NCBI GenBank assembly: GCA_030427905.1
Contig: JAUICL010000001.1
Location: forward strand, 372,001-436,000
Source: Bacteroidia bacterium
GTDB taxonomy: Bacteria; Bacteroidota; Bacteroidia; Flavobacteriales_D; Cryomorphaceae
Direction of reading: 5' to 3'
Length of the DNA: 64,000 nucleotides
Position 1 is the first letter of the stretch; each line of letters opens with the position of its first letter. A program made the translations under genes and the position numbers. Positions 33,664-44,008 of the stretch are shown here, piece after piece. The notes beneath the pieces were generated by a model. That model saw nothing but the letters and a program-made list of their open reading frames with translations, ran no database searches and was not told the DNA's origin.

Positions 33664-33737
33664 GGCCCGGTAGTTCAACTGGATAGAATATCAGATTTCG
33701 GCTCTGAGGGTTGAGGGTTCGAATCCTTCCCGGGTCA
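33664..33737 (+). tRNA. tRNA-Arg (anticodon TCG)
   Basis: The 74-nt cloverleaf folds fully: acceptor GGCCCGG with CCGGGTC (one G-T pair), D arm GTTC/GAAT, anticodon stem TCAGA/TCTGA around the loop TTTCGGC giving anticodon TCG, and T arm GAGGG/CCTTC with loop TTCGAAT. Discriminator A is at 33737. CCA is not encoded. Its last 16 nt are repeated 177 bp downstream. Confidence 0.93.
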
Positions 33738-33898
33738 CAAGCAAAACACCCCGACGATAGTCGTGGTGTTTTTTTATGCCCAAAAGCTTTGCCGAGTCAC
33801 ACTCGAGCAGAGCTGTGGGCATAAAAAAAGTTCTGGCTGAAAATCAGCCAGGGTTTTGCTTGGAGTATTAAAGTAACCATGTAAAGGATCATGTAAAT
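33722..33898 (+). repeat. Tandem repeat unit 1: tRNA-Arg 3' end plus hairpin cluster
   Basis: A 177-bp unit starting within the tRNA-Arg T arm (AATCCTTCCCGGGTCAC) and repeated directly once. It contains three hairpins nested within an outer CAAGCAAAA (33738-33746)/TTTTGCTTG (33854-33862) pairing: a terminator at 33743-33775; a long stem closed by ATGCCC (33776-33781)/GGGCAT (33817-33822) with an inner AGCTTTGC/GCAGAGCT stem; and CTGGCTGA/TCAGCCAG at 33833-33851. Confidence 0.9.
33743..33775 (+). terminator. Terminator after tRNA-Arg
   Basis: A 13-bp stem AAAACACCCCGAC/GTCGTGGTGTTTT with one C-T mismatch and loop GATA, followed by a T run. It starts 6 nt after the tRNA. Confidence 0.85.
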
Positions 33899-34075
33899 AA
33901 TCCTTCCCGGGTCACAAGCAAAACACCCCGACGGTAGTCGTGGTGTTTTTTTATGCCCAAAAGCTTTGCCGAGTCACACTCGAGCAGAGCTGTGGGCATA
34001 AAAAAAGTCCTGGCTGAAAAGCAGCCAGGGTTTTGCTTGGAGTATTAAAGTAACCATACCTAGGATCACGGAGTA
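33899..34075 (+). repeat. Tandem repeat unit 2: copy of tRNA-Arg tail and hairpin cluster
   Basis: The second copy of the 177-bp unit, nearly identical to the first. Differences are few and mostly in loops: GATA to GGTA in the terminator loop (33920-33952), one base in the CTGGCTG hairpin, and divergence in the last 20 bp. The tRNA fragment at its start lacks the rest of the tRNA and cannot form a cloverleaf. TAATCC occurs again at 34074-34079, as at the first unit boundary. Confidence 0.9.
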
Positions 34076-34108: not shown

Positions 34109-35620
34109 TCAAAGCACCTGAACCTTCCTCACCCCTACTTCCCCAGCTTCTGACTCTATCATTAACACATAAAGCCCTGATGGTAGGTTGAGTGAAACTC
34201 GTGTTGTAAACCCATTAATTACGCCTTTTTGAACTGTTCTCCCTTGAAGGTCTAATATGCGCCAAGTCTCTGCTTCGTTCTGATCTTCAGGCTGGATGGT
34301 GAGTTCATCTTCCGCTGGATTTGGATAAACATTGAAGTCTAACTTTGATTGTTCTTCCAGTCCGACACTTACCGGCTCACAGCCCAGCCATTCAAAATCT
34401 CCACAGGCGTCTAATTTAACTAGAAAGGACTCAGCTTGTTGAAAGCCACCTTGCATAAAATCTTGCCAATAGCCCGTAAAAACGTAGCCCCCGTCTGGTG
34501 CAACATCAATATCACGCGCTCCCGTGTCGCAACTCGAACAAGACTCATAAGAGTACTCCTGAAACCAATCTAACTCCAAGTCTGAGTTGACTTTTGCCAC
34601 CCAAGAAAGAAATTCAAATGATTCGTTAAGGGAAGTTCCTAAGATGACAAAACCGTCGTCAGATGCCGGAATAATATCTCTAATTTTCATAACCATATAC
34701 TCATAGTTATTCAAATGGGCTATGGGCTCTGAAACGGTGTTGGTGATGGTGTCGAAATACGACAATGCCAATTCTGTCCAATATATATCTGGATCACCAA
34801 TCTCTTCGTTCCACTCGTAATTTTGGGTATAGGCGAAAAGGATACCATCCGGTTCGGATTTTGCGACTAATGCCTGATTACCACCCATATTATTAGTCAG
34901 ATTTGCATCTTCATGTACATTCCCCAAGGTATCCATTACGGTATATGCCGCATGAAATGCCTGAGCATCTTCGCGAAAGCCTGTAAACAAAATCCTATCT
35001 TCATACAGCACAAAGTCCTCTATTCGGTGGGATTCGCCAGAAACAACCGGCACATCATAAGTCCATACAACATTTCCTTCCAAATCAACTTTTGAATAAT
35101 ATGAACCAAAACCATTTGCTGGATCCACGAAGGATCCTATAACAAGATGATTTCCAAAAAAACGCCCATATCCCACAAATGATTCAGGATATTCATCATC
35201 TACCAAATCGTAAAACTGTTTCTCGACTGAACTGAAGTTCAGTTCAATCGCCACCCTATACCCCCTAGGGATGTTCTCTACAGTACCAATTGAATTATAT
35301 GCAACAAAAGCTTCAAGCCCACTTTCATATTGGAATGAGTTAAAAGCGCCAATATAGTATAAGGTGTCTGGAGACATTACTTGTATAGTATCAATAAATG
35401 CACCAGCTGAATCATACTTTCTCACAAACGGAAAAATATCAGTCTCATCTCTTTGTCCACCCCAAACAAAATAATACTCTCCTACAACTTCTACATTAGA
35501 AGTAGACGTCAATCCACCTTCGTTGTAGCTTAGTATTTCTGAATGAAAATAGTCGTACTGCCCAATGCACGCAAAGGGCAATACAACTAATGTCATCCAA
35601 ATAATTTTTCTCAATATCAC
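34109..35620 (-). CDS. T9SS-sorted secreted protein of unknown function (paralogue A)
   Basis: A 503-aa exported protein. Signal peptide ends PFACIGQ; the start is GTG at 35620, or ATG nine codons in. The body has irregular beta-propeller-like repeats (DGGYVFTGYWQD, DDGFVILGTSLN, DRILFTGFRED). The C-terminus is a type A sorting domain: VYPNPAEDELTIQ, WRILDLQGRTV and GLYVLMIESE. Function unknown. It is paralogous to the next gene upstream and lies immediately downstream of an orphan sorting-domain tail whose TGA overlaps its GTG. Confidence 0.82.
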   Translation of the reverse strand: MILRKIIWMTLVVLPFACIGQYDYFHSEILSYNEGGLTSTSNVEVVGEYYFVWGGQRDETDIFPFVRKYDSAGAFIDTIQVMSPDTLYYIGAFNSFQYESGLEAFVAYNSIGTVENIPRGYRVAIELNFSSVEKQFYDLVDDEYPESFVGYGRFFGNHLVIGSFVDPANGFGSYYSKVDLEGNVVWTYDVPVVSGESHRIEDFVLYEDRILFTGFREDAQAFHAAYTVMDTLGNVHEDANLTNNMGGNQALVAKSEPDGILFAYTQNYEWNEEIGDPDIYWTELALSYFDTITNTVSEPIAHLNNYEYMVMKIRDIIPASDDGFVILGTSLNESFEFLSWVAKVNSDLELDWFQEYSYESCSSCDTGARDIDVAPDGGYVFTGYWQDFMQGGFQQAESFLVKLDACGDFEWLGCEPVSVGLEEQSKLDFNVYPNPAEDELTIQPEDQNEAETWRILDLQGRTVQKGVINGFTTRVSLNLPSGLYVLMIESEAGEVGVRKVQVL

Positions 35621-35723
35621 TTTAACTTTACTATTAACTCTTCTTTTAGAAGAGAGCCATCCTTAGCGACTATTCTAATCAAATAATTCCCTGCAGGCTG
35701 AGAACGTAAATTGACGGAAGAGA
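35621..35723 (-). pseudogene. Orphan C-terminal tail of a T9SS sorting domain
   Basis: Between the two paralogues the minus strand encodes VNLRSQPAGNYLIRIVAKDG and then SLLKEELIVKLK before a TGA, a typical last-strand pattern of a type A sorting domain. It has no start or upstream body: the frame runs back into the 3' end of paralogue B in a different frame. It ends exactly at the GTG start of paralogue A. It looks like the leftover 3' end of a gene replaced by insertion or recombination. Confidence 0.7.
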
Positions 35724-37235
35724 TTACAAAACCTGAACCTTCTTCACCCCTACTTCCCCAACTTCCGTCTCTATCATTAATACATAAAGCCCTGATGGTA
35801 GATTGAGTGAAACTCGTGTTGTAAACCCATCAATTACTCCTTCTTGAACTGTTCTCCCTTGAAGGTCAGTGATCGTCCATTTGATCGCGTTCTCAGGTTC
35901 AGTAAGTTCAATAGTAAAAGACTCTTCAACTGGATTTGGATAAACATCGAAGTCTAGCTTTGATTGTTCTTCCAGTCCCACACTAACTGGTTCACAGCCT
36001 AGCCATTCAAAATCTCCACAGGCGTCTATTTTAACGAGGAAAGCTCTGGATGCCTGAAATCCTCCTTGGTTTATATCTTGCCAAATGCCTGTGAAAACAT
36101 ATCCACCATCCGGAGCAATGTCTATGTCCAAAGCTTCCGTATTACAACTCGAACAAGACTCATAAGAGTACTCCTGAAACCAATCTAACTCTAAATCGGA
36201 GTTGACTTTCGCCACCCAAGAAAGAAATTCAAATGATTCGTTAAGCGAAGTTCCTAAGATGACAAACCCATCGTCAGAAGCCGGAATAACATCTCTTACT
36301 TTCATAACCATATATTCATAGTTATTCAGGTGAGCTATGGGCTCTGAAACGGTGTTGGTGATAGTGTCGAAATACGACAATGCCAATTCTGTCCAATAAA
36401 TATCTGGATCACCAATCTCTTCGTTCCATTCGTAATTTTGGGTGTAGGCGAAAAGGATACCATCCGATTCGGACTTTGTGACTAATGCCTGGTTACCTCC
36501 AATATTATTCGTTAAAAAAGGCTCATCAATCACATTTCCCGTAGTGTCTACCAAAGTATAAGATGCATGATAAGTCTGTGATACTCTTCGAAACCCTGAA
36601 AAAAGAATTTTGTCTTCAAAAAGAACAAAGTCTTCAACTCTGTATGTTTGATTTGACGCTGACGGTATTTGGTAAGTCCATATGACATTTCCTTCCATAT
36701 CCACTTTCGAGAAGTATGATGCAAATGCATTACTGGACCCTATTAATGAGCCAATAACCAAGTGGTCGCCATAAAATGAACCGAAACCGACAAAGGAATC
36801 CGTGTTGTTTTCTGGGAAAAAATCATAAAACTGAGAGCTTGAACCATCAAGGTTAAGGTTTACTTGAAACCTGTAACCTACGGGAGGACCATTTGAAGTT
36901 CCTATTGCATTAAAGGCTATGAACACCCCAAGATCGCTCACATAGCGAAATGAATTCCTAGAGCCAATATAATATAGGGTATCTGGGGATTCAAGATAAA
37001 ATGTATCAACAAATGTTCCATCAAGATCATATTTTCTCACAAAAGGAAAGATATCAATCTCGTCCCTTTGAACTCCCCATGTAAAGTAATAATCATCAAC
37101 AACTTCCACACATGAAGAATTATTAAATCCATCTTCATTAAAAGGTAGAAGGTTCGTTTGGAAATAGTCGTACTGCCCAATGCACGCAAAGGGCAATACA
37201 ACTAATGTCATCCATATAATTTTTCTGAATATCAC
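35724..37235 (-). CDS. T9SS-sorted secreted protein of unknown function (paralogue B)
   Basis: A 503-aa paralogue of the previous gene with the same architecture: signal peptide ending PFACIGQ, propeller-like beta repeats and a type A sorting domain (VYPNPVEESFTIE, WTITDLQGRTV, GLYVLMIETE). Residues 1-25 and about 245-370 are almost identical to paralogue A, while residues 26-245 are much more divergent. It starts at GTG 37235, overlapping the TGA of another orphan tail. Function unknown. Confidence 0.82.
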   Translation of the reverse strand: MIFRKIIWMTLVVLPFACIGQYDYFQTNLLPFNEDGFNNSSCVEVVDDYYFTWGVQRDEIDIFPFVRKYDLDGTFVDTFYLESPDTLYYIGSRNSFRYVSDLGVFIAFNAIGTSNGPPVGYRFQVNLNLDGSSSQFYDFFPENNTDSFVGFGSFYGDHLVIGSLIGSSNAFASYFSKVDMEGNVIWTYQIPSASNQTYRVEDFVLFEDKILFSGFRRVSQTYHASYTLVDTTGNVIDEPFLTNNIGGNQALVTKSESDGILFAYTQNYEWNEEIGDPDIYWTELALSYFDTITNTVSEPIAHLNNYEYMVMKVRDVIPASDDGFVILGTSLNESFEFLSWVAKVNSDLELDWFQEYSYESCSSCNTEALDIDIAPDGGYVFTGIWQDINQGGFQASRAFLVKIDACGDFEWLGCEPVSVGLEEQSKLDFDVYPNPVEESFTIELTEPENAIKWTITDLQGRTVQEGVIDGFTTRVSLNLPSGLYVLMIETEVGEVGVKKVQVL

Positions 37236-37386: not shown

Positions 37387-37501
37387 AAAGATAAAAACCC
37401 CAGCCAAATAGCAAAGAAGTGTGATCTGGCTACTGCCTTCCACCCCCTTCACAGCCATCCATCCAAGCCCTAAATCACTCCCTACCAACAAAGATTTAGT
37501 C

Positions 37502-37573
37502 ACGGTCTTCAGACGGTCTCCTTACGGTCATCTGACGGTCTGAATACGGTCTAAACACGGTTAAAATACGTTC
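37502..37573 (+). repeat. Seven-unit 11-bp periodic array ACGGTCnnnnn
   Basis: ACGGTC begins at 37502, 37513, 37524, 37535 and 37546, then ACGGTT at 37557 and ACGTTC at 37568: an exact 11-bp period with a constant 6-mer and variable 5-mer. It lies 65 bp upstream of the unknown gene at 37639. The period is not a multiple of 3 and no frame is conserved, so it is a DNA-level rather than protein-level repeat. Confidence 0.9.
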
Positions 37574-37638
37574 ATACGCAGACCAAAACGGTGTAACTAC
37601 CCGTTATAAGCCTATACAACCACTTAAATTTCAAGGCG

Positions 37639-38373
37639 ATGGCAGAGCAAATTGGCCCATTTCAGTTCAAAGGAAAGCTGGGAAACCTGGTAGGAAAGCA
37701 AATCAACGGCAAGTACATAGTCTCACTCCCGGGTGGGCCCACAGCCGCACAACTCAAGGATAAATCGAGGGAAGGAAACAAGCGAATCCACGAAAACCAA
37801 GCGGAGTTCTCTAGCGCATTTCTCTTTGCAAAGGATATCTACCTCGACATCAAGAACCACACATCTCCCGGCCACTTCCACGCACATGCCTGTGCCAAGC
37901 TCGGCGGTAGACTCTACATGTTGCGCACCATGGATACAGATTCACCCCGTGGACAGCGCAAACCTAACATTGCAGCGGTTTCGCTACTCAAGGACTTTCG
38001 CCTTTCAGATCCAAACCAAAATCCGTGGAACGCACCACCATCTTTTCAAAGAATTTCTGAAACCGAATTAAATCTGGAAATAAACAACCCCAGTACAGCC
38101 CTGAATTTCACAAAAGAAGGCGATGAAAAGTTTGCTGTACGCGTCATCGTCCAGCACTTGGACATTGAAAACCGCAAGGTACTCAGCTCGGCCGCTACAG
38201 AGCAAGTCCTCGACCTCACCTCCACAGCACCCGTATCGTGGAATGTCGAAATCTATCCCGAGAATACACTGGTCACAATCGCTACCAATTTCTTCTTAGA
38301 AAACAATGGCTTCCAATTCCCCCTTTTCCAAAAAAAGCGATGCTCATGCTTTATCGCTAATTTCTTTATTTAA
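37639..38373 (+). CDS. Unknown Bacteroidota-type protein (244 aa)
   Basis: Not assigned to a named family. No signal peptide or membrane helix. The N-terminus FKGKLGNLVGKQINGKYIVS resembles a group of uncharacterised Bacteroidota proteins that open with a G-x-x-GN strand pair. The middle is rich in Lys, Arg, Asn and His. The last dozen residues (RCSCFIANFFI) look unlike the rest and follow a run of seven A at 38329-38335, so a frameshift shortening or altering the C-terminus is possible. It is preceded by the 11-bp repeat array and followed by 203 bp with no recognisable feature. Confidence 0.6.
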   Translation: MAEQIGPFQFKGKLGNLVGKQINGKYIVSLPGGPTAAQLKDKSREGNKRIHENQAEFSSAFLFAKDIYLDIKNHTSPGHFHAHACAKLGGRLYMLRTMDTDSPRGQRKPNIAAVSLLKDFRLSDPNQNPWNAPPSFQRISETELNLEINNPSTALNFTKEGDEKFAVRVIVQHLDIENRKVLSSAATEQVLDLTSTAPVSWNVEIYPENTLVTIATNFFLENNGFQFPLFQKKRCSCFIANFFI

Positions 38374-43620: not shown

Positions 43621-43718
43621 TGGGCCGTGGTTATCTCAAGGACCAAAGTATGAAATTCGATGGAAGGGGTGATGGGATAATGGTTAACTCCTACTGTCGT
43701 GATATCGTTCCTCCGCTG

Positions 43719-43873
43719 CCGCGCGATTAGCGAAGCGTATCGCGTGGTTTATGACCCTATAAACTCGGATTGCCTCCGGCGATCCGCAGTACCCTAAGGT
43801 CAGAAACGAACCCGTTCGCTCTTTACAGCGAACGATGATTTTTTCATTCCTACCTGCGGTAATATAGCAGCTA
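43719..43873. repeat. Tandem hairpin repeat unit 1 (155 bp)
   Basis: The first of two direct repeats. It contains three hairpins: CGCGAT/ATCGCG, GGATTGCC/GGCGATCC (loop TCC) and CGTTCGCT/AGCGAACG (loop CTTTAC), followed by a T-rich ATGATTTTTTCATTCC. No open reading frame or tRNA is contained. Confidence 0.85.
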
Positions 43874-44008
43874 CCGCGCGATTAGCGATGCGTATCGCGT
43901 GGTGCTTAGTCTTATCTACTTGGATTGCCTCCGGCGATCCGCGGTACCCTAAGGTCAGTAACGAACCCATTCGCTCTTTACAGCGAACGATGCTTTTTTC
44001 ATTCCTAA
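43874..44008. repeat. Tandem hairpin repeat unit 2
   Basis: A second copy of the 155-bp unit, highly similar in all three hairpins but divergent in the spacer after the first. It ends at TTTTTTCATTCCTAA, which pairs with TTAGAAATGAAAAAA about 30 nt downstream, merging the repeat into the terminator region of the tRNA-Cys locus. Confidence 0.85.

Follow-up and report, generated by a model that had tools for sequence, protein, structure and literature searches.

REP sequences with their RAYT are dispersed intergenic elements of which one copy bears a gene, and the group is defined by REP hairpins together with a Y1 transposase. In the PHO box, the direct repeat unit is 11 nucleotides long, of which 7 bases are well conserved and 4 less so, and OmpR-family units are likewise read head-to-tail (PMC4415409). 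The type II plasmid centromere parC of R1 also has 11-bp direct repeats, which lie near the gene of their reader, ParR; these repeats differ strongly between families, and a non-cognate ParR is unable to bind them (PMC9426499). BrickBuilt, a MITE of Porphyromonas gingivalis, has 19 dispersed copies and an internal tandem repeat of 23 nt (PMC4596501). To our knowledge, it is the nearest dispersed repeat in the phylum.

The locus analysed here, within a stretch of 64,000 nucleotides from a Bacteroidia bacterium of the Cryomorphaceae (the window), has features of each of these systems. Like the PHO box, its array is built of 11-nt direct repeat units that are in part conserved and in part variable, but a single genome has several unrelated cores, and every core goes with a DUF6266-like gene of its own. 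As in parC/ParR, repeats of about one helical turn adjoin a putative reader gene and diverge with it, whereas, in contrast to ParMRC, the system is chromosomal, has many gene-less copies and has no parM neighbour that we could see. The linked protein has an FnIII-like fold instead of a ribbon-helix-helix domain and the location is not plasmidic, and a ParR centromere was rejected on these grounds. The resemblance to BrickBuilt lies in the phylum, the dispersed copies and the internal tandem repeat; the unit is however of 11 bp and a gene is linked, while BrickBuilt has a 23-nt repeat and no linked protein family, and it bears terminal inverted repeats, of which none was seen by eye in the array copies. 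Finally, as in REP/RAYT, the arrays are dispersed and intergenic, with one copy accompanied by a gene.

The window array (37502..37578, forward strand) consists of seven units in strict 11-bp steps, starting at 37502, 37513, 37524, 37535, 37546, 37557 and 37568, and its end lies 65 bp from the ATG at 37639, which reproduces the geometry given in the preliminary description. That description had the 6-mer ACGGTC exact in all seven units; this holds for units 1-5, while unit 6 reads ACGGTT and unit 7 ACGTTC. Over the whole window, three-unit matches at up to three mismatches number 6, against a maximum of 1 in dinucleotide shuffles. The upstream flank (37443..37501, forward strand) is about 84% identical to that of two other array copies of the same genome, C5:151904 and C5:154577, and the leader between array and start codon (37579..37638, forward strand) is homologous to the C5:154577 copy. 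This leader holds GACC/AACC-type bases, in the sense opposite to the GGTC core, which may be degenerate inverted units. Other tandem repeats are present in the window: a 177-bp unit in two copies with 98% match (33722-34057), which includes an apparent terminator-like CACCCCGACGATAGTCGTGGTGTTTTTTT and adjoins two tandem 503-aa paralogues (34109-37235), the second of which (35724-37235) has a T9SS sorting domain, and a 155-bp unit in 1.9 copies with 89% match (43715-44007).

The ACGGTC array is not confined to this locus. In the 3.81-Mb genome to which the window belongs (G000), nine such arrays are present, including the window copy, against 1+1 for the reversed-pattern control; the whole-genome pattern search gave no tenth array at the same threshold, and no ACGGTC array was found in the 7 other genomes of the same family that were searched. 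All nine are intergenic, among unrelated neighbour genes, and the gene-less copies have inconsistent orientation and neighbours with no obvious common theme. The number of units differs among the copies. By their flanks, the nine arrays fall into two types, the window copy being grouped with C5:151904 and C5:154577. The last of these precedes a truncated remnant of the start of a 37639-type gene, 78% identical over 32 residues. At one locus (L018), C5:151904 and C5:154577 flank a Y1/RAYT-type transposase gene, C5:152618. With nine copies, an operator private to one gene is not supported. An iteron-like initiation array is not supported either, as the copies are chromosomal, the protein has no Rep signature and there are almost no plasmid or phage relatives; an iteron replication origin was thus discarded, with no Rep initiator, several chromosomal copies and no plasmid location.

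The 74 units of the nine arrays have 35 distinct spacers, against 56.4 ± 2.4 expected under column independence, and the spacers TCCTT, TAGTG, TTCAG, TGAAT, ATAAT and TAAAC recur across the arrays with their order kept. The spacers therefore do not vary freely, as the preliminary description had it, but belong to a shared vocabulary in fixed order. Nevertheless, the entropy of core positions (0-0.82 bits) is lower than that of spacer positions (1.05-1.91 bits), and therefore the contrast between a conserved core and a less conserved spacer, also part of that description, is real.

Of the genes next to the nine ACGGTC arrays, only the one at the window array (37639..38373, forward strand) was found to be an intact member of its family. 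It encodes a DUF6266-like protein of 244 aa, with a three-strand basic N-terminal module, a helical segment and a C-terminal FnIII-like beta-sandwich, as in the predicted structure (pLDDT 89.9; the second predicted model in the DUF6266 comparison has 88.5). Both models have FnIII-like domains among their best PDB matches, although these are weak for the window protein, and the PDB fold searches gave nothing beyond these weak matches. The protein has no family match in Pfam, NCBIfam, PADLOC or PHROG and does not reach the Pfam DUF6266 model (PF19781; 0 families at E<=1), but its N-terminal module (about aa 1-34; 37639..37740, forward strand) is common to DUF6266 by profile-profile comparison: hhalign aligns 34 columns with a probability of 75% and an E-value of 2.6e-5. 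Together with the FnIII-like C-terminal domain, this agrees with the architecture of DUF6266. The ORF of the L047 homologue does reach the PF19781 model (36.9 bits, above the cut-off). No DNA-binding domain was recognised in the window protein by Pfam, NCBIfam and PDB search. Its charge runs +4/+4/-4 along the chain, with residues 1-120 basic and the remainder acidic, both in this protein and in the family average.

A profile of the relatives has matches in 30 of 247 genomes of the class. The T9SS sorting domains of the window genome, its relatives and the protein family itself point to a member of the Bacteroidota. A phage or plasmid origin was set aside, since a DUF6266 protein has no match in phages or in the plasmid search, the only records being one plasmid for L180 and one viral contig for the A2 profile. 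A defence system was also set aside, with no PADLOC match for the window protein. In flavobacteria, relatives of the window gene (L243, L244 and L245) belong to a small module that recurs and also comprises DUF5675, DUF6943 and a hydrophobic, glycine-rich protein of ~78 aa; a divergent SNase-like gene is found at related loci, and in G226 the module is present as an inverted pair.

The check proposed in the preliminary description, arrays upstream of homologues of the 37639 protein, gave a positive result. We scored the 400 bp upstream of 60 homologues from across the Bacteroidota, which are a sample and not an exhaustive list, for self-match at shifts of 6-30, with far-upstream and downstream regions as controls. 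Shift 11 stands out, together with its harmonic 22. At a dinucleotide-shuffle p<=0.01, arrays are found in 26/60 upstream regions against 2/58 far-upstream and 3/59 downstream; at a period-11 score of at least 31 of 44 self-matches, the counts are 13/60, 0/58 and 0/59, respectively. About 25 of the 60 upstream regions are without a significant array. In a subclade of 267-aa proteins (L195, L196 and L210), the 11-bp array is 60-90 bp downstream of the gene, not upstream. Genes of true DUF6266 proteins also have 11-bp arrays (L164, L165, L170 and L047). The core changes from locus to locus (AGCGTY at L010, TAGCG at L011, CTAACTATAT at L164, ATGCTT at L015, CCCGA at L211, and among further homologues ACGGTC, GGCGGTC, CAACTAAG and others), while the period of 11 is constant. 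At L170 and L029, units are present in both orientations within one 11-bp phase (CCATATCAA then TTGATATGG, and ACCGTATTCAT then ACGGTCGAGAT). Two genomes with unrelated cores (L226 and L269) have the array close to the 3' end of an asnS-like gene, as judged by its sequence, possibly a coincidence.

In one clade of flavobacteria, 14/21 upstream regions and 0/21 controls have YATRC repeated every 11 bp exactly, for an expectation of about 0.01 per region in shuffles, and the same core is found in the same position at homologous genes of many genera. More generally, unit similarity is 0.59 for protein pairs at least 45% identical and 0.36-0.40 below that (Mantel p 0.027), although common descent may account for part of the likeness of cores among relatives. 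These data bear on a neutral slippage minisatellite, or chance, as the origin of the arrays. Such an origin would fit the differing copy number of units, and pure 11-bp minisatellites do exist elsewhere: most of the non-Bacteroidota matches listed for the ACGGTC pattern resemble plain minisatellites with near-identical spacers. It is nevertheless hardly credible, as it is contradicted by the cross-genome statistics: the period is fixed over distant homologues with unrelated cores, the core is kept more than the spacer instead of the two diverging alike, and a clade shares both core and position. According to the preliminary description, the array consists of protein-binding sites phased along one face of the DNA and is not a slippage minisatellite. 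The higher conservation of the core, the period of 11 kept at distant homologues despite the change of sequence, and the YATRC core kept in its clade all support this reading, in which the units are candidate sites.

Dispersal is also seen with other cores. G000 has three array families, ACGGTC (nine arrays), CAACTAAG (five) and GGCGGTC (four), each with one copy bearing an intact DUF6266-like gene plus dispersed gene-less copies; the two paralogues of the 37639 gene lie at C2:196612 and C1:4786. For several cores, gene-less copies occupy another 3-14 positions on the chromosome, most of them intergenic. In an unrelated genome (G159), the L164 core is present at 15 loci, all intergenic and one with the gene, and it is absent from two other genomes searched, with 0 control matches. 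The G159 copies have a conserved body of ~100 bp between unrelated flanks, and the second half of this body has units in reverse orientation (ATATAGTTA), so that the two halves are opposed. In G003, the core was found at the gene only, with no dispersed copies.

Since gene-bearing and gene-less copies coexist, we keep as a possible, though rather unlikely, account that a small transposable unit uses the arrays for its recognition; its gene-bearing copy would be autonomous or carry the gene as a passenger, and its gene-less copies would be MITE-like derivatives. The arrays are indeed multicopy and intergenic, as are MITEs, and the single gene-bearing copy per core with several gene-less ones, the truncated gene that follows the C5:154577 array, the conserved body of the G159 copies amid unrelated flanks, and the arrays of rumen Bacteroidales at gene junctions and within ORFs (see below) are consistent with this account. 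However, the protein has neither the fold nor the family of a transposase, terminal inverted repeats and target duplications were not seen in the copies viewed by eye, and only one of the two Y1 transposase genes of G000 is near arrays (2 of 18). REP/RAYT was rejected on the last count and because the linked protein is not a Y1 transposase. Moreover, mobility alone does not require that the core be kept at homologous genes of many genera in one clade, and G003 holds the gene-linked copy alone.

A second account, which we consider improbable, is that the arrays are operators of an unlinked OmpR/PhoB-type regulator, the DUF6266-like gene being one target of several. PHO boxes are defined by 11-nucleotide direct repeat units (PMC4415409), and the arrays are near promoters. 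But G000 has three cores, each with its own DUF6266-like gene, where a single regulon-wide consensus would be expected, and different gene lineages have different cores. The arrays also run to 5-9 units, and many copies have no fixed orientation before a gene.

Rumen Bacteroidales have many ACGGTC arrays among the matches listed, and in all 7 genomes tested in which such arrays are dispersed there is a short gene family, whose protein has an N-terminal pattern that appears similar to that of the DUF6266 family, a kinship proposed by eye only. At the nine loci of this family that were read, the leader has ACRGTC units, eight in sense and one degenerate antisense, in most cases just after a TAnnTTTG promoter. 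At five rumen loci (L025, L034, L036, L051 and L116), an ACGGTC array is within open reading frames, mostly in sense; these ORF-internal arrays look as if placed at junctions of fused genes. In flavobacteria, by contrast, the array is upstream of the -7 motif, and location in leaders was dropped as a general rule.

An array that starts right after the TAnnTTTG promoter is probably transcribed, which, with the mostly sense orientation of the ORF-internal arrays, would fit a leader-RNA element, acting in RNA by being bound by protein or by altering translation. We regard this as very unlikely. The RNA structure of the window is no better than chance (z -0.83), there is no Rfam family match, the G159 copies have no consensus fold, and the flavobacterial array is upstream of the -7 motif. 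The sense bias can be explained by the rumen unit itself, which has no stops in sense, being stop-free in every frame.

The arrays are thus linked to a gene, dispersed and constant in period, with a conserved core that is private to the lineage and, where a genome has several paralogues, even to each of these. To the explanation that best accounts for this we give about an even chance: a dispersed family of helically phased sites goes with the adjacent DUF6266-like gene, the window array being the member closest to that gene, and the product of this gene, or a co-inherited factor, binds to the array. The protein, with its basic residues 1-120 and acidic FnIII-like domain, would be the leading candidate for the binder, and the bound molecules would line up next to one another along a single face of the helix. 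Binding at its own gene would result in autoregulation, and the same complex, assembled at the dispersed sites, may serve a genome-wide task, either regulation or local chromosome organisation. The position relative to the promoter differs between lineages, and it is therefore improbable that a simple repressor operator describes the system in general. As the proteins and their cores seem to diverge in parallel, no paralogue would be expected to read an address other than its own. More tentatively, we propose a lineage-private addressing, in which every DUF6266-like paralogue is the reader of one type of phased 11-bp array, found next to its gene and at several other points of the chromosome.

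The homologues and their core-divergent arrays suggest an undescribed family of DNA sites with cognate reader proteins. We found no mention of DUF6266, nor of 11-bp repeats of this kind in Bacteroidetes, in the open-access literature, and novelty of the gene-array system is meant here as not found in that literature, not as proven. The element is missed by cross-genome similarity searches because its core changes; an uncharacterised protein family, widespread in Bacteroidota, is tied to a DNA element that is visible by its period and not by its sequence. The pairing of reader to site is directly predictable, and several cores in a single genome, with one reader candidate each, offer a natural series for the study of protein-DNA co-evolution. 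If the addressing is true, one genome holds several site/reader pairs that do not cross-talk and that organise or regulate the chromosome, with the period as the conserved code and the letters of the core as the private key.
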